Source of the DNA: Plantibacter sp. VKM Ac-2880
GTDB taxonomy: Bacteria > Actinomycetota > Actinomycetes > Actinomycetales > Microbacteriaceae
DNA length: 64,000 nt
Assembly: GCF_015351235.1 (NCBI RefSeq)
Contig: NZ_JADKSJ010000001.1
Location: forward strand, 1,815,668 to 1,879,667
Direction: 5' to 3'
Shown: in pieces, positions 32,031 to 40,980 of the stretch
How positions within the stretch are numbered: the stretch's first letter is position 1
How the letters are laid out: every line of letters begins with the position of its first letter
The notes under the pieces: generated by a model
The model's database searches: none
The model's input: the letters and a program-made list of their open reading frames with translations, nothing else
Told to the model about the DNA's origin: nothing
Made by a program: the position numbers and the translations under genes

Positions 32031-32387
32031 ATGGCACGGAAGGACGAGCTCGGCCGACGCGGCGAGCAGGTGGCGACGGAACATCTCGAGGCATGCGGGT
32101 TCCGCATCCTCGATCGCAACTGGCGATGCCCGCAGGGCGAGCTCGACGTGGTCGCCGACGACGGCGGCACCCTCGTCTTCGTCGAGGTGAAGACCCGTTC
32201 CGGTGTCGGGTTCGGGGACCCGACGGAGGCGGTCACCGCTCGCAAGCTCGCGAGGATCGGCCGCCTTGCCGGGGCCTGGTGCGCCGAGCACCACCCACGC
32301 TCGAGGCGGATGCGCGTCGACGTCGTCGGGATCGTGCTGCCGCCGGAGGGCGGCGTGCGTCTCGAGCACCTCCGAGGGGTGTCCTGA
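32031..32387 (+). CDS. YraN family (UPF0102) endonuclease-like protein
   Basis: A 118-residue member of the UPF0102/YraN family, which has a Holliday-junction-resolvase or restriction-like nuclease fold. The likely metal-binding residues are in GELDVVADDGG and LVFVEVKTRS, a D...ExK pattern. Its cellular role is not settled. AGGAGGTG lies 4 nt before the ATG at 32031. The stop shares a base with the next start, so it is coupled to the comM-like gene, consistent with a shared role in DNA uptake or recombination. Confidence 0.92.
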   Translation: MARKDELGRRGEQVATEHLEACGFRILDRNWRCPQGELDVVADDGGTLVFVEVKTRSGVGFGDPTEAVTARKLARIGRLAGAWCAEHHPRSRRMRVDVVGIVLPPEGGVRLEHLRGVS

Positions 32388-33916
32388 TGGCCGTGGCACG
32401 TACCTGGTCCGTCGCCCTCGCCGGTCTCACGGGTTCGATCGTGGAGGTCGAGGCGTCGGCGTCCGCGACGGTCCCCGGCATGGCGATCGTCGGACTCCCC
32501 GACAAATCCCTCGGCGAAGCCGCGCATCGGATCAAGAGCGCGACGGCGAACTCGGGTTGCCCGTTGCCGGGCGGCAAGCTCACGATCAACCTGTCGCCGG
32601 CGTCGTTGCCGAAGCAGGGGAGCGCGTTCGACCTCTCCATCGCCATCGCCTGTCTCGCCGTCGGCGGCCTCGTCCGTCGGGAGTCGGCCGAGCGGGTGGT
32701 GCACCTCGGTGAGCTCGGGCTCGACGGCCGGCTGCGGCCGCTCTCCGGGGTGCTCCCTGCGGTGCTCGCCGTGGCTCGCGCGGGCTACGACGCGGTCATG
32801 GTGCCGACCGCCAACGTCGCGGAGGCACAGCTCGTCCCCGGGGTCACCGTCGTCGGTGCGACGTCGCTCCGCGACGCGGCGATCTGGCACGGTGCCGAAC
32901 TGACGCCCATCGATCTGGAGCCGGTCCGGCAGCGCATCGAGAAACTGCCGGAGCCGGACCCGCTCGACCTGGCCGACGTCGTCGGTCAGCCGGACGCGGT
33001 CGACGCGATGGTCGCCGCGGCCGCCGGCGGTCACCACGTCATGATGGTCGGACCACCGGGCGCGGGCAAGACCATGCTCGCGGCCCGGCTGCCGGAGATC
33101 CTGCCGGATCTCGGCCCGGACGCCGCCGTCGAGGTCAGCTGTCTCCGGTCCCTGATCGGCCTCCCGCCGGACGGGGGCCTCGTGCGGAGACCGCCCTGGG
33201 AGAGCCCGCACCACTCGTCCTCGGCTGCGGCGATCATCGGCGGAGGCTCTCGGCAGATCCGGCCGGGCGCTGCGGCGCGCGCGGCGCACGGGGTGCTCTT
33301 CCTCGACGAGGCACCGGAGTTCCGGGCGGACGTCCTCGACTCGTTGCGGCAACCGCTCGAGTCGGGTGTCGTCACCGTCCACCGCGCGCACGGCAGCGCC
33401 ACGTTCCCCGCCGCCTTCCAGCTCGTCCTCGCGGCGAACCCGTGCCCCTGCGGGCAGTACGGCACGGCGGACGGCGTCTGCACCTGTCCACCGCAGGCCA
33501 GGAGGCGGTATCTCGGACGCGTGTCGGGTCCGCTCCTCGACCGCATCGACATCCGGGTCCGCGTCCAACGGATCACCTCGGCGCTGTCCGGACTCTCGCA
33601 GGAGGGCGGACTCTCGACCGCCGAGGCCCGCGCCCGGGTCGAAGCCGTCCGGAGCGCGAGCGCCGAACGATTGGCCGGCACCGGCTGGACGACGAACGCA
33701 CAGGCGAGCGGCACCTGGCTCCGCAGTCCGCGGATGCGCCTCGCCAGATCGGTCACGGCCGCGCTCGACCGTTCGCTGGAGCGCGGCGGGATCACGATGC
33801 GCGGGTACGACCGGATCCTCCGACTGGCGTGGACGCTCGCCGACCTCGATGGCGCCGACAGCCCGACGGCGGAGCATCTCGGGCGGGCCCTCTTCCTCCG
33901 GAAAGGCATCTCATGA
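32387..33916 (+). CDS. YifB/ComM Mg-chelatase-like AAA+ ATPase
   Basis: A 509-residue AAA+ protein of the YifB/ComM family. In naturally competent bacteria ComM is a helicase that speeds branch migration during transformation. An N-terminal Lon-protease-like domain comes first (VGLPDKSLGEAAHRIKSA). The ATPase domain has Walker A VGPPGAGKTMLAARLP near residue 220 and Walker B GVLFLDEAPEF near 305. ANPCPCGQYG and a Cys pair (CTCPP) mark a zinc-binding segment, and the C-terminal Mg-chelatase domain closes the chain. Its stop overlaps the dprA start as ATGA. The 3' end looks native, so the disturbance begins just after it. Confidence 0.93.
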   Translation: MAVARTWSVALAGLTGSIVEVEASASATVPGMAIVGLPDKSLGEAAHRIKSATANSGCPLPGGKLTINLSPASLPKQGSAFDLSIAIACLAVGGLVRRESAERVVHLGELGLDGRLRPLSGVLPAVLAVARAGYDAVMVPTANVAEAQLVPGVTVVGATSLRDAAIWHGAELTPIDLEPVRQRIEKLPEPDPLDLADVVGQPDAVDAMVAAAAGGHHVMMVGPPGAGKTMLAARLPEILPDLGPDAAVEVSCLRSLIGLPPDGGLVRRPPWESPHHSSSAAAIIGGGSRQIRPGAAARAAHGVLFLDEAPEFRADVLDSLRQPLESGVVTVHRAHGSATFPAAFQLVLAANPCPCGQYGTADGVCTCPPQARRRYLGRVSGPLLDRIDIRVRVQRITSALSGLSQEGGLSTAEARARVEAVRSASAERLAGTGWTTNAQASGTWLRSPRMRLARSVTAALDRSLERGGITMRGYDRILRLAWTLADLDGADSPTAEHLGRALFLRKGIS

Positions 33917-35226
33917 GCTCCTGGTTCGGCTTGGACCGCGAGTTGGTCGAACGCCTCGTCTTGGGTATCAGTGGAGAGCGTCCGATGGGTGAGTCGTCGG
34001 CATCGACCAGTGAGGCGGCTGGCGAGGCTGACACCGTCTGTGCCGCCTTCGCGCGGGCTGCGTGGACGATGATTGCTGAGCCCGGTGATGGCGTGGCCGG
34101 CCTGGTCGTCGACGCATTGGGTCCTGCGGAGGCGTTGGCGGCCGTGCTGGATCGTGTCGGGCCGACGGAGTTGCAACGCCGGGTTCTGGCCAGCGGCTGG
34201 GAAGGCGACCCAGACGGTGGTGACGCGACGGCGTCGCTGGACGAGCCTCCCGCAACCACACCGGGATCGCGGGTACTGGGCAACGCGCTCGCTCGCTGGA
34301 CGCCACGGTTGGTCGCGGCCGAGGTCGTGGGAGCATGTGAGGCGGCAATCCGCGTCGGCGCTCGGCTCGTTCTCCCGGGGAGCGCGGGCTGGCATGCCGG
34401 GCTGGACTCGCTCGGGATGCATCGACCACACGCACTCTGGCGCCGTGGTACGAGTGAGGCTGCGGCCGTGGAGCGCACGATCGCGCTCGTCGGCGCAAGA
34501 GCAGCGACCGGATACGGCGAGCACATCACATTCGAGGCAGCATCAGGACTCGTGGACCGCGGGTTCACGATCGTCTCGGGTGCTGCGTACGGCGTCGACG
34601 GTACGGCGCATCGAGCTGCTCTGGGGAGCGGTGGGGTGACGGTGGCCTACCTCGCCGGCGGTGTCGACCGTCCGTATCCTGCGGGTCACGACGCGTTGAT
34701 ACGTCGGATTACGGAGGAGGGCGGCGCGGTCCTGAGCGAGTCGCCGTGTGGCTCGACGCCGTCTAAATGGAGGTTCTTACAACGCAACCGATTGATTGCA
34801 GCGGCGTCCGCCGCGACGGTGGTTCTCGAGGCCGGCAGCCGGTCGGGGTCGATCAATACGGCGGGGCATGCGGCGTCGCTTGGACGCGCGCTCGGGGCAG
34901 TCCCGGGCCCAGTGACGAGTCCGGCCTCGGCAGGCTGTCACCGGCTCATCCGTGAATACGCCGCAACCTGTGTGACGAACGCCGAACAGATGGCCGAGCT
35001 CGCCGGCTGGGCCGCGGCCGATCCTCAGGATGGGGCCTTCGCCTCGCCTGAAGAGCGACGCGTCCGTGATGCACTGAGCACGCGCTCACCTCGTACGATC
35101 GAGCAAATCGCGAAGGTGGCCGGCCTGACACCTAAGGAGGTCGCCGGAGTCATCGGTATGCTCGACCTCGCCGGAGCGGTTGAGGAACGCGAACATGGAT
35201 GGGTCTTGAGCGCAAGCGTCAGGTGA
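33913..35226 (+). CDS. dprA: DNA-processing protein DprA (complete copy)
   Basis: A 437-residue DprA, which loads RecA on incoming single-stranded DNA. The Rossmann-fold core has IALVGARAATGYGEHITFEA, IVSGAAYGVDGTAHRA, WRFLQRNRLIAAAS and EAGSRSGSINTAGHA. A C-terminal winged helix follows (about 370-437). It overlaps comM by 4 bp as in other actinobacteria. Its DNA uses more A/T-ending codons than its neighbours (for example ttgattgca, gatacgtcgg). A second, broken dprA starts right after its stop; the two differ at 9 of 64 residues over the first shared core. It therefore looks like an acquired copy that replaced the front of the resident gene. Confidence 0.92.
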   Translation: MSSWFGLDRELVERLVLGISGERPMGESSASTSEAAGEADTVCAAFARAAWTMIAEPGDGVAGLVVDALGPAEALAAVLDRVGPTELQRRVLASGWEGDPDGGDATASLDEPPATTPGSRVLGNALARWTPRLVAAEVVGACEAAIRVGARLVLPGSAGWHAGLDSLGMHRPHALWRRGTSEAAAVERTIALVGARAATGYGEHITFEAASGLVDRGFTIVSGAAYGVDGTAHRAALGSGGVTVAYLAGGVDRPYPAGHDALIRRITEEGGAVLSESPCGSTPSKWRFLQRNRLIAAASAATVVLEAGSRSGSINTAGHAASLGRALGAVPGPVTSPASAGCHRLIREYAATCVTNAEQMAELAGWAAADPQDGAFASPEERRVRDALSTRSPRTIEQIAKVAGLTPKEVAGVIGMLDLAGAVEEREHGWVLSASVR

Positions 35227-35227
35227 G

Positions 35228-35616
35228 TCGTCGCAGCGCCTGGTGGCTCCTTCTGCCCTCTGGCTGCTGGGTCCACCCGACGTGCCTGCGGGAGAACGCG
35301 CCATCGCGTTGGTGGGGGCCCGGGCTGCGTCCGGTTACGGCGAGCACATCACCCTCGAGGCGGCGGCCGGGCTCGTCGATCAGGGCTTCGCAATCGTGTC
35401 GGGTGCCGCGTACGGCATCGACGGCGCGGGGCACCGAGCCGCCCTCGGGAGCGGAGGCGTGACCGTGGCCTACCTCGCAGGGGGGGGGGGGGCGACCGGC
35501 CTTACCCTGCCGGTCACGACGCGCTCATCCGTCGGATCCGGGAGGCCAGCGGAGCCGTCATCAGCGAATCACCGTGCGGGTCCACACCGTCCAAATGGCG
35601 ATTCCTGCAGCAGCGA
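35228..35616 (+). pseudogene. dprA: dprA remnant, middle part (frameshifted)
   Basis: Reading from the stop of the complete dprA, the frame resumes another DprA at ALWLLGPPDVPAGERAIALV and continues through the Rossmann core. The first 160 or so codons are absent. At 35480-35492 a run of 13 G shifts the frame; reading on in the corrected frame gives DRPYPAGHDALIRRI, then SESPCGSTPSKWRFLQQR, after which homology stops abruptly at about 35616. Codon use is high-GC like the neighbouring chromosome, so this is probably the resident gene. Its 3' end is at 39670-39993. About 40 codons between the two parts are missing. Confidence 0.85.
35480..35492 (+). repeat. Run of 13 guanines
   Basis: A homopolymer of 13 G inside the broken dprA. 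Eleven or 14 G would keep the DprA frame. It may be a true slippage mutation in a gene no longer selected, or a sequencing or assembly artefact. Confidence 0.9.
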
Positions 35617-35700
35617 GTCAAGTCGTATGCTCCAAGATGAGCCACCTACGCGATAGTGTGGCGAGACTTCTAATATCTGCTTGATTGCCCGATTGGACAC

Positions 35701-36327
35701 ATGTTGCCAGAGATTTTCACGAATCGGGTAGACATCTCTGGGGAGGTCGTAGAGCTGTTTTCGGCGGCTTCCGTCGTTCATCGAATCGTCTATCGGATGT
35801 TGGACGACGAGCCGGGAACTCCGTTCGTGATGCATCTCAAAGGAACCTCGGTAGACAACAAGCAGTTCGACCGTAAGACAGTTGATGAGTTGCGGAACGT
35901 GATGGAGGCGAACCGTGCCGAGGTGTCAACGATCCACTCCATCGTCTTCGCGGATTCAAGCGACCACTATCCCGCGGTGATGTACTTTATCTGGCCTACG
36001 GAGATTTCAATCTCGGTGACCGGCACAAGCCGCATAGCTCTGGACCGCATTGCTCACCATCTGCTCGAGGAGCTCCGGGAGTCCAGAGCGCTTGCTGCAG
36101 CCCAACCGGGTGGCGAGTTCGTTGTGAGAGAGCAGACAGTCTCTTCACACGAGGACCCACCAACTGCACCCACCGCTCCACCCGCAATGCCCGAACCTGT
36201 ATCGGAACCGCAACCCGGCTGGTGGAAGCGCACCTGGCGGGAGCACACCGCGCTGCTCGTCGTCACGATCGTGGGAGGAGTGGCTGTCCTGGTCATAGGA
36301 GCGAAACTGCTCGGGATCGGTGGCTAG
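35701..36327 (+). CDS. Orphan protein with C-terminal membrane anchor
   Basis: A 208-residue protein of unknown family. Residues 1-140 form a soluble alpha/beta domain (for example PAVMYFIWPTEISISVTGTS). A Pro/Ala/Glu-rich linker of about 35 residues follows. Near the C-terminus WWKRTWREHTA leads into one membrane span (LLVVTIVGGVAVLVIGAKLL), so the soluble domain most likely faces the cytoplasm as a tail-anchored protein. Base use is lower-GC than the chromosome. There is only a weak ribosome site (TTGGA). No catalytic motif was recognised. Confidence 0.6.
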   Translation: MLPEIFTNRVDISGEVVELFSAASVVHRIVYRMLDDEPGTPFVMHLKGTSVDNKQFDRKTVDELRNVMEANRAEVSTIHSIVFADSSDHYPAVMYFIWPTEISISVTGTSRIALDRIAHHLLEELRESRALAAAQPGGEFVVREQTVSSHEDPPTAPTAPPAMPEPVSEPQPGWWKRTWREHTALLVVTIVGGVAVLVIGAKLLGIGG

Positions 36328-36465
36328 CCGATTCTCTCGGCCCGCGCTGATGTTGTCCAGCACGTCGAGGAAGCCCTCTGGGGGCGCCTGGGAATCGTCG
36401 ATCCTGGCTTCCACCTGCCGGCTGACGAAAGACGCATAGGTGTCCCTGACCTTGACTGGAGCCAT
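36328..36465 (-). pseudogene. Short coding fragment, N-terminal part of lost gene
   Basis: On the minus strand an ATG at 36465 opens a frame starting MAPVKVRDTYASFVSRQVEA with strong G/C third positions for about 46 codons. The frame then runs into the antisense of the neighbouring gene's 3' end, where it loses meaning. It reads like the front of a real protein cut off near 36327. The family is unknown. Confidence 0.35.
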
Positions 36466-36519
36466 CGTTCTTTCAGCCTCACAGAGTGGCTGGTCAAGCG
36501 CCCGGAGTTATCCACAGGG

Positions 36520-37377
36520 TTAGTGCCCATCCTCGGAGCTCGTAAGTTCGGCTGCAACGGACTGCGGCGGCATGGCTTCGGGCTGCTCTGGTTTCAATCT
36601 GGCCATCACTCGTTCGATCTGCTCAGCGTCCTCGTCGAACATGCGATACACGCGTGTATCTCGCGCCAGCTGGTCTACCTCGACGATGTCCTTCGCCAGC
36701 TTGGACAGATACGCTTCGCCATCCGATTGAATCTGTCTTGCCTCCAGAAGGCGTTTGTCTGATCTGTCCACCATTTGCTTCCGCGTCTCAAGGAGAGCGG
36801 CGAGCGCGTCGGTGCGTCTGCCCCGTTCTTCCGGCAAAAGCCCGGGTTCAGCCGCTACGCGTGCGATCAGCCCACGCGTACCTTCGACGACCCTGTCGAA
36901 ACTGCGTCTGTCGGCTTCTTCCTTCCGGATAATCCTGACAAGTCGATCGTTCTGCTTCATGAGGTCCCTGCGCGCCTTTCGCTGCGTGCGGCGAAGCTCT
37001 CGGAGACGCTTGCGGTGCACTTGCCAGTCTGATCCTCGCTCCAGCCGATTGAGCATCACGCCGACCTCAGGTATTCCTGCACCCACCAGGAAACTGATGG
37101 GCTGGAACGCTAGAACGAAGACCACAGCACCCACTGTGAAGAGAGCGATCCAGACTTGAAGGTGAGTCGAGGTGCCCGTCGCCATCGAACTAAGCGCCCA
37201 CAACTCGGCGTTGAACATTCCGGCTGCGAGGAAGAAAATCCCGATGGCCTGGCCGAGGCGAGACTTGTTCTCTCTGCGCCACTTCATGGCGATCCTGCGG
37301 GATTCAATCACGAAGGCAAGCGCGAGGACCGGAATGATCTGCGAAACCGGCACCCAGAAGTTCGAAACTTGGGTCAT
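36520..37377 (-). CDS. Orphan membrane/coiled-coil protein
   Basis: About 285 residues. Three membrane spans occupy the first third (VSQIIPVLALAFVIES; LGQAIGIFFLAAGMFNAEL; VWIALFTVGAVVFVLAFQPI). From about residue 115 the rest is long, charged, helical coiled coil (RLRELRRTQRKARRDLMKQN and onward) that should lie in the cytoplasm. The ATG at 37377 is used here; a GTG at 37398 and a TTG at 37440 are possible longer starts, and none has a strong ribosome site. No family is recognised. It converges on the orphan membrane-anchored gene across a 190-bp gap. Confidence 0.6.
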   Translation of the reverse strand: MTQVSNFWVPVSQIIPVLALAFVIESRRIAMKWRRENKSRLGQAIGIFFLAAGMFNAELWALSSMATGTSTHLQVWIALFTVGAVVFVLAFQPISFLVGAGIPEVGVMLNRLERGSDWQVHRKRLRELRRTQRKARRDLMKQNDRLVRIIRKEEADRRSFDRVVEGTRGLIARVAAEPGLLPEERGRRTDALAALLETRKQMVDRSDKRLLEARQIQSDGEAYLSKLAKDIVEVDQLARDTRVYRMFDEDAEQIERVMARLKPEQPEAMPPQSVAAELTSSEDGH

Positions 37378-37461
37378 GGGGTCTATGTCGCTGAGCACCT
37401 GCCGATCATATTGGCCGGGTGTCTGACGCAGGTACCTCAACCTTCGGGACTCGCGGGTTCG

Positions 37462-37593
37462 TCAGCTCGGAAGTTGCGCGTTCGTCATGTCTCGACCTCG
37501 GATGGTCATCTCGTCGTTGTCGAAGTCGAAGCGGTTTGAGGACACGCGTCCGGCCTGAGAGGTCGTTGACGGGTATCGGACGTTCAACGCCAT
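37462..37593 (-). pseudogene. 43-codon coding-like fragment
   Basis: An ATG at 37593 gives a 43-residue product ending FDFDNDEMTIRGRDMTNAQL and a stop. Third positions are mostly G or C, and in-frame sequence upstream (TDIRPGMALNVRYPSTTS) also reads naturally. It is probably the C-terminal piece of a lost protein. There is no ribosome site. Confidence 0.3.
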
Positions 37594-37778
37594 GCCAGGG
37601 CGGATGTCAGTGCTCCTCCCAGCTGTCCACCTGATCGGGATGAGCAGCGAGGGTGTTCGGGCTGGTAGGCCTCGATCTGCCCGTGGACTGCGCGGTCGTA
37701 CTAGTGGCCGACGACGAAGGAGTCCCCGGTTTAGATGACACGGCCGGGTCTGGCACAGGGGAGTCAGTCGCGCGGAGC

Positions 37779-37964
37779 TCAGCCCTCTAACCAGGCCTTC
37801 GCCTCGTCGACGCCGTCCTCGGCCATCGAGAACACCTCGCCGTTCATCTGGTGCGGCCACACGCTGAACTCGTCCGCGAAGCTGTCGATGGCGACCGAGG
37901 GCCCGGAACCAGGGGTGAGCGAGCTGCAGAAGCCCCAGACGCCGACGTCGGGTTCGTCTTCCAA
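37779..37964 (-). CDS. Small acidic ORF or gene fragment
   Basis: A 61-codon frame, from a TTG three codons after an in-frame stop, encodes an acidic peptide (EDEPDVGVWGFCSSL at the start, DGVDEAKAWLEG at the end). Almost every third position is G or C, unlike much of the island, so it has been under coding selection in a high-GC host. It may be a small gene or a remnant of a longer one. No family is recognised. Confidence 0.4.
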   Translation of the reverse strand: MEDEPDVGVWGFCSSLTPGSGPSVAIDSFADEFSVWPHQMNGEVFSMAEDGVDEAKAWLEG

Positions 37965-38026
37965 GTGCCATCATCCTCGGCGTAGGTTCCTACTCAACTG
38001 TGAGGCTTCTAACGCATCTCCGTAGG

Positions 38027-39073
38027 TCAGCGCCGGCGGTTTCTCCAGTTCATGGACTCCCTGGCAGCCGCCAGCGACTCCAACTGGTCAAAGCGGAGGC
38101 CAGGTGGGAAGTAGGAGAGAGCCAGTTCCAAACCCACCTTTCCGCCGAAGAACCAGTGGTTCTGAAGTTTTGTTCCATTGGGGAGCACGGTCCAGCCTGG
38201 ATGTAGTTGGAACGATCCCGCACAGCCGACGCTAGTCAGATCAACCACCGTCACTGGGAAGCTGTTGACTTCGAGCGGAATCGCAGCCTGACGAAGCCGT
38301 GGAAAACGTGTTGCGAACGACGCGAGATTTGGATGTTCCGTGAACGTAACGGCGAAACGAGCACCGCTCTTGTGGCGGACATCGAGTGAGCGACCGCCAG
38401 GCTTGCAGATCACCTGCTCGAGCTCGTGTTGTGGTACCACCCAACTGTTGTTGGTGATGACTGCCTCGTCACGGAGCCCATAATTCAGCATGAGTTCGCC
38501 GTACTCGTTCCGCTCGAACCAGATGAGAGGAAGGCCGGTCATCGCGACGAGTATCGGCGTGTCAACGTAGAAGTTGCCCCCTAGATGCGCGACGATTTTG
38601 TTCCGCATCCAGCCAAACTCGCCTCGAATCGCAGCCGCTGATTCCGGTCCCATCTGCTTAAATCGGCGCAGCTGGTCGTTTGTGTACGAGCCGTTATCAG
38701 CCTTGTCAGCGTGTTCTCTGCACAGAGCGATCATTCCATCCACTCGATGATGGTGCTCCTTGTGCCAAGGAGGATCGAAGTGGTGCCAGGACAAGTAGGG
38801 GCTGCCGCAAATGCCCTCCGCCGTCGCAACGGGGCAATGAAACCTCACTTCACTTCGCAGTGCGTCGAGGACGTCGGCGGGGGGTGTCCTTGTGAGAATA
38901 CCGGTCACGATCAGAGAATACCGTCCCTGATAGCATGCCGCCGAGGTTGGAAGGTCGTCCAGCGTCACGACGAAGAAACTCAGTCGGCTACTGTCCGCGT
39001 CTTCAACGCTGGGTTTGGTGTCAGCAGGTCCGATGCACAGTAATCGAGACTGTTTCGCGAACCTCGGGCTCAT
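38027..39073 (-). CDS. HNH nuclease-like protein with beta-rich C-terminus
   Basis: A 348-residue protein. Residues 80-140 form a Cys/His-rich, HNH-like module: Cys 80 and Cys 89 (CPVATAEGICG), LSWHHFDPPW at 95-103, a His run at 107-109, then GMIALCREHADKAD with Cys 118 and His 121. The pattern fits an HNH endonuclease fold with zinc ligands. The C-terminal 190 residues have no recognised domain and look beta-rich. Such proteins occur in mobile and defence-linked regions, but no partner for a known system is present. The ATG at 39073 overlaps the upstream pseudogene by 53 bp and lacks a ribosome site, so the true start may be further in. Confidence 0.65.
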   Translation of the reverse strand: MSPRFAKQSRLLCIGPADTKPSVEDADSSRLSFFVVTLDDLPTSAACYQGRYSLIVTGILTRTPPADVLDALRSEVRFHCPVATAEGICGSPYLSWHHFDPPWHKEHHHRVDGMIALCREHADKADNGSYTNDQLRRFKQMGPESAAAIRGEFGWMRNKIVAHLGGNFYVDTPILVAMTGLPLIWFERNEYGELMLNYGLRDEAVITNNSWVVPQHELEQVICKPGGRSLDVRHKSGARFAVTFTEHPNLASFATRFPRLRQAAIPLEVNSFPVTVVDLTSVGCAGSFQLHPGWTVLPNGTKLQNHWFFGGKVGLELALSYFPPGLRFDQLESLAAARESMNWRNRRR

Positions 39074-39669
39074 CGAACGCGAACCGGTGGACGGCTATCG
39101 GCATCTCACTCGTCCCGCACGGCGCTGTTGCAGCCGCCGGGAATTGAAGCGTGAATTGTATGAGGAAGTTACCGCCTGGTGCGTACGAACTGACATCGAC
39201 ACCGGATGTTACGAGTCCATCGCTGATGGGGACGCCGTCTGGGTCCTTGCCGTTCGCAAGGACGCTAGTGTCGGGGACCAGGGCGACCCCATTCGGCAGG
39301 AGCATCTTCACGGAGACGTTGTCTTGCTATCCATCTGGGAGGTTGCGCCACCCAAGAAGACCACTGAAGTCCTGCCCCTCGAATACTTCAGTTCCCGTGG
39401 AGGTGAAGCATCCGGATGAGGTTGAGGGACGCTGCAGCAGTTGGAGTCCGGAGTTGATCCCGTGATCATATTCGAGTCGCGTGGGGGTATCCGAGCAGGG
39501 CGCTGCGACTTTCGGTACGAAATGTGCGACGACTCTCTCGCCGATCGAGGAAGCGATCGAGGTAAGTATGATCCCGCCGACGGCGCCTAAGGTTGCCCAG
39601 AAAGTCTCCGAACGCCAAGGGTAGGTTACCCGCGGGGAGTTAAGACCGGCTAACTGGCTCGACTCAAAA
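39021..39669 (-). pseudogene. Surface-type (DUF11-like) protein remnant with in-frame TAG
   Basis: One continuous frame on the minus strand is interrupted only by a TAG at 39329-39327. Before it lie a membrane span (FWATLGAVGGIILTSI) and a variable region ending GLLGWRNLPDG; after it comes QDNVSVKMLLPNGVALVP followed by SDGLVTSGVDVSSYAPGG. The second part resembles the repeat domain DUF11 of Gram-positive surface proteins. No start codon exists inside the island, and the frame runs straight into the dprA sequence at 39670, so the 5' end was cut by the junction. Readthrough cannot be excluded but is unlikely. Confidence 0.6.
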
Positions 39670-39993
39670 CCCGGCCCGGTCACGAGTCCGTCGTCGGCGG
39701 GCTGTCACCGGCTGATTCGTGAGTACGCCGCCATCTGCGTGACGAACGCCGCGCAGATGGCGGAGCTCGCCGGGTGGACCGCGGTCGACGCGGACGCGCA
39801 GGCGTTCGCCTCACCGGAGGAACGCCGGGTCCGTGATGTGATGAGCGCTCGCTCGCCGTGTACCGTCGAGGCGCTTGCGAAAGCGAGTGGTCTGAGTCCT
39901 CGTGAGGTGACCAGCGTGCTCGGTGCGCTCGATCTCGCCGGGGCCGTCGAGGAACGCGAACGAGGGTGGGTGCTCGTCGGCGGACGGGCGTGA
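39670..39993 (+). pseudogene. dprA: dprA remnant, 3' part
   Basis: From 39670 the frame reads PGPVTSPSSAGCHRLIREY, clearly the C-terminal third of DprA, and ends in a winged-helix domain with LDLAGAVEERERGWVL and a stop. It is in the usual place directly before xerC and has high-GC codon use, so it is the back end of the resident dprA whose middle lies at 35228-35616. A GTG or ATG could in theory start translation inside it, but a functional product is not expected. Confidence 0.85.
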
Positions 39994-40050
39994 GGTGATC
40001 GGTCGGCGGGGGAAGGCCACGGCGTCGGACGCGTGGGGCATGCTGTCCAC

Positions 40051-40980
40051 GTGGACATCTGGAGCAGCATCGATGGGTTCTCGGAGCACCTCGCTTCCGA
40101 GCGTCGGCTGTCGCCGCAGACCGTTCGCGCCTACGCATCCGATCTCCGGCAGCTCGCCGACTTCGCCAGCGGACGCGACATCGACGACGTGAGCGGTGTG
40201 ACCCTCGACCTCCTGCGTGACTGGCTCTGGATGGCGTCCGAATCGGGCTCGTCCAAGGCGACGCTCGCCAGACGAACCGCCACGGCCAAGGCCTGGAGCG
40301 CCTGGCTCCTCCGGACGGGCAGGATCGAGGCGGACGTCGCGGCGCGCCTCCGGAGCCCGAAGACCGGTCGGACCCTTCCCCGGGTCGTCGGACGTGGGCC
40401 CTTCGACGAGCTGCTCGCCGGGCTCGAGGACCGTGCAGCGTCGGGGGAACCGAACGCGCTCCGTGACCTCGCCGTCGTCGAACTGCTGTACGCGTCGGCG
40501 CTGCGCGTCTCCGAGCTCTGCGGCCTCGACCGGGACGACCTCGATCTCGACCGACTCACCGTCCGCGTGACCGGGAAGGGTGACAAGGAGCGCGTGGTGC
40601 CGTTCGGTGTCCCCGCGCAGTCGGCGATCGTCGACTACCTCACGAGCGCTCGACCGCAGCTCGCGGCTCGGGCCCGCTCGGGCGACGGTCGCCCGGCGCC
40701 CGGCGCGGCCCTGTTCCTCGGCGCCCGCGGTGGCCGACTCGGCTCGCGCTCCGTCTACACGCTCGTCGCCCGGCTCCTCGACGCCGTGCCAGGCGGCGGC
40801 CCGGCGGGACCCCACGCCCTGCGTCACACCGCGGCGACGCACCTCCTCGACGGCGGGGCAGACCTCCGAGCGGTCCAGGAACTCCTGGGTCACGCCAGCC
40901 TCGCGACGACGCAGATCTATACGCACGTCTCCGTCGAGCGCATCAAGGAGAGCTACCGCAGCGCCCACCCACGGGCCTGA
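40051..40980 (+). CDS. xerC: Tyrosine recombinase XerC
   Basis: Site-specific recombinase that, with XerD, resolves chromosome dimers at dif. The 309-residue chain has an N-terminal SAM-like domain ([20 protein letters not shown]) and the catalytic residues Arg ([11 protein letters not shown]), Lys ([13 protein letters not shown]), His/Arg ([17 protein letters not shown]), His ([16 protein letters not shown]) and the nucleophile Tyr in that last motif. The GTG at 40051 gives a standard N-terminus; another GTG at 40033 is in frame. Its place between dprA and rpsB is the normal chromosomal one, so it is not the integrase of the adjacent island. Its 3' end overlaps the convergent M23 gene by 28 bp. 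Confidence 0.95.

Follow-up and report, generated by a model that had tools for sequence, protein, structure and literature searches.

Mobile elements are known to interrupt genes of natural competence: comYC, comEC, comFA, comK, radC and comM are the targets named in the accessible text of PMC4774983, where dprA is not among them and is mentioned only within the titles of references. In Acinetobacter baumannii, comM is broken by AbaR and by other elements that carry defense genes (PMC11472951, available sections). The same sections report a test for the salvage of comM by recombination, in which no excess was found, and the introduction of that paper describes DprA as the protein that protects incoming single strands and recruits RecA. 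The dprA gene has also been reported as cargo, carried by a resistance island (PMC5341023, in the part available). Insertion into competence genes is thus already known, while dprA as a recurrent target of insertion was not found in the searched literature, which leaves out subscription papers and preprints and part of which was available only as excerpts. Here, a dprA locus of Plantibacter sp. VKM Ac-2880 (Microbacteriaceae) is described, located in a 64,000-nucleotide stretch of contig NZ_JADKSJ010000001.1 (positions 1,815,668 to 1,879,667; hereafter the window, whose numbering is used throughout). A complete dprA stands there directly in front of a broken one that is split by a 4-kb island, and its comparison with the family places this locus among a series of dprA interruptions.

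The order on the forward strand is comM, dprA copy 1, the 5′-truncated copy 2, the island, the tail of copy 2 and xerC, which confirms what the initial annotation had read from the letters, namely a complete dprA overlapping comM, followed by a front-less dprA cut at WRFLQQR, with its tail 4 kb further on. Copy 1 (33913..35226, + strand, 437 amino acids) begins within the end of comM (32387..33916, + strand; stop codon at 33914–33916), a gene of 509 codons that is native to the lineage and intact here, and ends with a stop codon at 35224–35226. Its product matched the Pfam families DNA_processg_A (E-value 8.6e-60) and DprA_WH (1.7e-7), and only copy 1 combined the DNA_processg_A domain with a winged helix in one open frame. 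Copy 1 most likely supplies the DprA of the cell. A second DprA-family protein, 38% identical to copy 1, is encoded on a 108-kb contig of the same genome (L002, G000:C3:50575-51186; G000 is the window's own genome).

Copy 2 is without roughly its first 170 codons. Its middle part (35243..35609, + strand; clear homology from about 35255) and its tail (39657..39993, + strand) align to copy 1 in three blocks of 230 nucleotides (35255–35484), 125 nucleotides (35485–35609) and 300 nucleotides (39657–39956), which are 74–75% identical. Since the blocks are collinear and on a single strand, and the left edge of the island agrees with an attL arm from another genome (see below), the pattern is not a product of chance. 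The register of the 125-nucleotide block is shifted by 5 relative to the preceding block; here a run of 13 G (35480..35492, + strand) exceeds the homologous stretch by 5 nucleotides and puts a frameshift into copy 2, which the initial annotation did not mention. Such a homopolymer in a pseudogene might also reflect slippage or a sequencing error. The gene is cut at WRFLQ/QR (35591–35609), and 36–40 codons are absent at the right edge of the island, close to the 40 or so first estimated. The island itself (35610..39656, unstranded, 4.05 kb) has a G+C content of 59.2% compared with 69.1% for the whole window; in 500-base windows, it ranges from 56 to 64%, with 62–75% on either side.

The left edge of the island has the structure of an attL site (35591..35630, + strand): a host half with the dprA codons W-R-F-L, the core dinucleotide CA, and then an element arm with AGTCGTATGC, all at a site used by related elements. 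After the core CA the window reads GCAGCGAGTCAAGTCGTATGC, whereas the corresponding attL arms of two dprA insertions in other genera read CCACAAAGTACAGTCGTATGC (G356) and CCAGAAAGTCGACTTGTATAC (G274). The window's junction agrees with each of them in register at 15 of 23 positions, and for the arm of G356 a match of this quality was reached at only one of 63,977 window positions, the junction itself. Since the attL is kept and neither an attR nor a recombinase was found, the island is regarded as a remnant.

To place the locus, 398 genomes of the family were searched with copy 1, giving a DprA-family match above the score limit in 388 of them. Match positions were inspected in 99 genomes selected because their matches were several, weak or absent (49 + 50, six of them matchless; for the first 49, the weakest matches are absent). 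The gene is interrupted in at least 12 of the 398 genomes, belonging to 12 different genera, at four positions, and in 13 when the remnant in the window is included; both are lower bounds, as positions were inspected in those 99 genomes. Fragments of dprA at contig ends in two genomes (G222, G301) were left unclassed. All but one of the 12 insertions lie on single contigs. The expectation that dprA is a hotspot was thereby borne out. At site C (WRFL/Q), seven genomes (G274, G031, G247, G344, G328, G289 and G356) carry inserts of 8.5–18 kb with the same break codons, beyond each of which dprA resumes. Genomes of different genera share this one orthologous insertion point inside the coding region of the gene, and for all seven the core is taken to be the CA of the Gln codon. 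Every one of the inserts encodes a protein with Resolvase and Recombinase domains, which adjoins attR in six inserts and attL in G356. A profile built from the seven integrases returned the same seven as its best matches in the 398 genomes (577–769 bits), all of them in dprA, the next match scoring 380 bits; three of the 23 lower-scoring loci (L088–L110) were within 1.5 kb of comM or dprA (L090, L098 and L104). Extending the search beyond the family, to 295 genomes of the order, yielded G328 again and one weaker match of 344 bits (G632). At L090 (G010), the dprA is otherwise complete and has a serine integrase immediately ahead of its start; the 1.5-kb flank there gave no comM match.

Three further positions within dprA are used by other recombinases. 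Site D (INTAG/H codons) is occupied in G001 and G133. In G001, one of the six other genomes of the Plantibacter group (G001–G006), dprA is split into residues 1–323 and 308–433, about 31.7 kb apart on one contig, by a 32-kb element. A large serine recombinase is encoded adjacent to the right end of this element, which also carries genes for a MobA-type relaxase, MobC and two proteins with SIR2 domains. The integrase of G133, from another genus, is 71% identical to that of G001 and adjoins the tail of the split dprA. Although matches to the G001 integrase (E ≤ 1e-60) occur in ten family genomes, only the two best (G001, G133) lie within 1.5 kb of dprA. The serine integrases of sites C and D form two groups, the integrase of G001 being 29% identical to the first protein of site C. 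Site A (near codons 181–190) is interrupted in G310, with a tyrosine recombinase near the right end of the insert, and in G151, where the gene is split over two contigs. The insert at site B (near codon 225, G101) ends on the right with three adjacent large proteins, of which one exceeded the curated cut-off of the Phage_integrase family, one fell below it (21.6 vs 27.1 bits) and one had no match. Overall, at least four recombinase systems use dprA, two serine and two tyrosine-type, the site-B system being assigned by adjacency only.

The neighboring comM is a second target, interrupted in at least six family genomes. Serine integrases lie beside comM fragments in G085, G277, G123 and G031; both comM parts are present in G085 and G031, about 13–14 kb apart, and G031 has comM and dprA interrupted at once. 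The breaks beside serine integrases lie at approximately residues 308 and 483 of comM (L111, L112, L113 and L098). The comM search found the gene in 360 of 398 genomes (E ≤ 1e-12), 33 of which, picked by eye, combined more than one match with a reduced best score. Of six such genomes that were located, G092, G237, G142 and G131 are split, with 8–68 kb between the parts, and G030 and G309 are unsplit. Six comM interruptions are therefore certain and more are likely, and the 33 are not a count of interruptions. Three genomes that are at least 99% complete (G029, G204, G302) had no dprA match; comM was weak in G029 and G302 and gave no match in G204 at the same threshold.

The two copies differ in origin from each other and from their surroundings. 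The flanks of the locus are close to G005 at the nucleotide level (lepB-rnhB 97%, comM 94%, xerC 93%, rpsB 99%), and ComM shares 98% of its amino acids with that genome, while copy 1 shares only 72%. Copy 2 is 90–97% identical to G001–G004 and G006 and 79–80% to G005; its middle part has 90–93% to the G001 clade and 80% to G005, its tail 97% to G001 and 79% to G005. The front and middle of copy 1 reach 65–78% to all six other genomes of the genus. At fourfold degenerate sites, copy 1 is 44% identical to G005, compared with 82% for comM and 87% for xerC; fast vertical evolution of copy 1, as an alternative to import, was rejected on this ground. The dprA allele of G005 itself looks vertical, since its fourfold-site identity to G003 (58%) is like that of comM (54%) and xerC (58%). 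Trees of two segments nested copy 2 within the G001 clade, which had support values of 0.97 and 0.95; copy 1 formed a long branch of the genus group (support 1.0) that did not join G005. The flanks match G005, whereas copy 2 groups with a sister clade and copy 1 represents a deeper Plantibacter-type branch without sampled members. Both copies are therefore foreign to this lineage; the native allele is lost, and an intact dprA of foreign origin has taken over its position. The original proposal of an insertion into the resident dprA followed by rescue with a divergent copy thus stands as regards the insertion and the divergent complete gene; the broken copy is rejected as the resident allele, given its 79–80% identity to G005 against 93–99% for the flanks.

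These observations are probably best explained by the import of a sister-clade dprA broken by a serine-integrase element, which then decayed, with a complete dprA from a third lineage now standing in front of the wreck. A large serine integrase element would have inserted at a fixed crossover, the core CA of the Gln codon in WRFL-Q-RN, and the sister-clade dprA that this site-C element had broken would have come to occupy the interval between comM and xerC in place of the native allele. Decay of the element would have followed, with loss of attR, the integrase and 36–40 dprA codons, leaving 4 kb of cargo. An intact dprA from a third, more strongly diverged lineage would have been fixed in front, in register with comM, which would have removed the first part of the wreck and might have rescued DprA function. 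The last two events may have taken place in either order, or the present state may reflect a joint arrival. Several results weigh against this history. The right junction has neither a core nor the 36–40 codons, and its absent attR is read here as a deletion. Pfam recognized no Resolvase plus Recombinase protein among five open reading frames (ORFs) of the island, and at E ≤ 1e-70 an integrase of the site-C type is absent from all seven genomes of the genus. Without a recombinase or attR, the site-specific origin of the island relies on its left edge, the site and the comparison, and one of 3,987 positions in the island interior matches the arm of G274 as well as the junction does. In addition, none of the seven site-C elements was found to share cargo with the island, and the trees place copy 1 precisely only with weak support (0.66 and 0.64). 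No intermediate was found either: no locus had the broken dprA but lacked copy 1, and in none was copy 1 accompanied by an undamaged copy 2. The genome of the window also had no match to the site-C integrase profile (E ≤ 1e-70) or to the G001 integrase (E ≤ 1e-60), although short remnants are possible.

The adjacency of two dprA copies on a single strand could also result from a tandem duplication within the lineage, after which the second copy decayed and received an insertion of independent origin. The insertion point, however, is a recurrent integrase site, and the copies are not each other's closest relatives: copy 2 is 90–97% identical to the G001 clade, copy 1, in its front and middle, only 65–78% to all six genomes, and they occupy different branches. 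The simple duplication that would have overturned the initial interpretation was accordingly not seen, and this origin is rejected as very improbable. A misassembly of two loci, suggested by the poly-G run and the foreign segments, is even harder to accept, given that native flanks occur on both sides within a 2.54-Mb contig of the 4.03-Mb genome and that like insertions are present on single contigs in 11 other genomes.

A replacement dprA carried by the element was also proposed initially; copy 1 would then have entered with the element, leaving the host with DprA and the element with its site. The direct contact of copy 1 with the broken copy agrees with this, as do the rare codons at its site C, which are what a re-entry-proof copy might show. 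Yet intact alleles often vary silently at site C, no outstanding repeat beyond the dprA homology links copy 1 to the island, and, among the matches listed, none of the 11 other single-contig insertions has a second dprA match within it or next to it. Positive evidence for a carried replacement was not obtained, and it is considered improbable. Somewhat less so, but still unlikely, is the arrival of both copies and the island as a single block from an unsampled species, with no rescue in this lineage. It would account for both copies being foreign to the flanks; however, the copy 2 tail has 97% identity to G001 whereas copy 1 lies on no sampled branch, so the donor would itself have to be a mosaic.

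Site C of copy 1 (WRFLQRNRLIA, 34768..34800, + strand) is written with the rare synonymous codons AGG, TTA, CAA, TTG and ATT. The stretch with the rarest codons in the gene is exactly this site (AGG TTC TTA CAA ... TTG ATT; permutation p 0.00135), and the TTA is the sole one of copy 1, the background containing 2 TTA in 15,396 codons. Copy 1 does have the more A/T-ending codons first ascribed to it, with a G+C content at third codon positions of 0.72 compared with 0.89 for comM and 0.87 for xerC, but this is not special to it because the dprA frames of five relatives are similarly low (0.71–0.81, in frames that are over-long at the 5′ end). Removal of three duplicates from 33 site-C sequences left 30 distinct alleles, among them copy 1 and also G001, whose interruption lies elsewhere in the gene. 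Mismatches to a 23-base consensus number 4 in copy 1 and 0–8 in the others. Although the permutation favors a silently recoded attachment site (attB), variation of this size among the other alleles leaves such recoding as a possibility. The core CTGCAG was present in 7 of 7 interrupted site-C alleles, their halves read apart, versus 16 of the 30 distinct alleles, as counted by eye in an intact set biased towards relatives of copy 1; a Fisher test value of 0.017 is too favorable, as it used 8 of 8 by counting the left half in the window. Copy 1 might resist the integrase. A broader and doubtful idea is that comM and dprA form a battleground in Microbacteriaceae, on which unrelated elements converge because disabling these genes stops the host from recombining them out, and hosts respond by importing diverged dprA alleles with a silently recoded attB that the integrase no longer fits, copy 1 being such an escape allele.

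The content of the island gave few functional clues, and for most of its ORFs, no function was obtained from Pfam, PHROGs or PADLOC. From left to right, it contains an ORF of 208 amino acids (35701..36327, + strand) with a C-terminus that is hydrophobic by eye and no family above the cut-off, a segment related to ORF14 of the G001 element (36322..36519, − strand; 56% amino acid identity over 48 residues, 53% over 66 codons), and an ORF of 306 amino acids (36520..37440, − strand), hydrophobic and coiled-coil-like by eye, again with no family above the cut-off. These are followed by 187 bp with 91% identity to the 3′-terminal part of ORF15 in the G001 element (37779..37965, − strand), an ORF of 348 amino acids (38027..39073, − strand) belonging to the phage protein family phrog_6544 of unknown function (E-value 3.7e-30), with one distant match in the phage collection, and an ORF of 118 amino acids without a family (39327..39683, − strand). 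The 187-bp stretch and the ORF14-like segment, common to the island and the site-D element of G001, are the only shared cargo that was found. Beyond the tail of copy 2, xerC (40033..40980, + strand) belongs to the native flank and has a Phage_integrase Pfam match.

The elements inserted in dprA elsewhere in the family carry diverse genes. Dsr1-like, second SIR2 and HEPN genes were observed in the G001 element (L018 11163-14858; L017 9396-13385; L017 14131-15711), and a FokI-like nuclease in the site-A element of G310 (L066 3971-5533). Three elements of 8.5–11 kb (G031, G247, G344) encode a major head protein of phrog_283 (L060 3832-4722, L061 6707-7615, L062 8033-8926), one of them also a terminase small subunit of phrog_1496, with no further structural gene among the proteins tested; such elements are possibly capsid-encoding phage satellites. 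The 17–18 kb inserts of G328 and G356 (L063, L065) have a phage-like gene order by eye and are apparently small prophages. Among large serine integrases of actinophages, the nearest record is that of the Arthrobacter phage Soondubu, which shares 53% identity with the G247 integrase and 45% with the G356 integrase. Directly upstream of the integrase start of this phage lies a dyad, recognized by eye, that contains the 13-mer CATATAACTTGAC, and this 13-mer is common to Soondubu (L117 2435-2474) and the attR arm of the G356 dprA insertion. Soondubu is predicted to integrate in dprA; the 6.4-kb stretch inspected holds no attB annotation, and no such arm was seen by eye upstream of the integrases (about 43% identical) of three Microbacterium phages.

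As in the systems covered by the accessible text of PMC4774983, an element occupies the coding sequence of a transformation gene, the site is orthologous across genera and unrelated integrases converge on it. Unlike in those systems, the target is dprA, four positions of one gene are used, and a foreign intact copy stands beside the broken one. The locus resembles the A. baumannii comM case, as far as the available sections of PMC11472951 describe it, in the neighboring competence gene, the defense-type cargo (two SIR2 proteins in the G001 element, one of which is Dsr1-like) and the idea of recovery by recombination; it differs in having serine and tyrosine integrases instead of Tn7-like elements, in its actinobacterial hosts, and in that both comM and dprA are hit, in G031 both at once. 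Given the role of DprA in shielding incoming single strands and recruiting RecA, a host that has lost it should be less likely to remove an element by transformation, as is argued for other competence genes in PMC4774983, and breaking dprA might help elements by reducing the ability of the host to recombine them away.

Overall, dprA is a new target. In 12 genera it is hit at four positions, the recombinase systems involved numbering no fewer than two of the serine and two of the tyrosine type, which adds a case of independent convergence. To our knowledge, transformation has been little studied in Microbacteriaceae. The attack of elements on competence genes has been taken, in the accessible text of PMC4774983, as an argument that transformation clears mobile DNA from genomes. 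With defined attB sites and the cultured phage Soondubu, this idea becomes testable.

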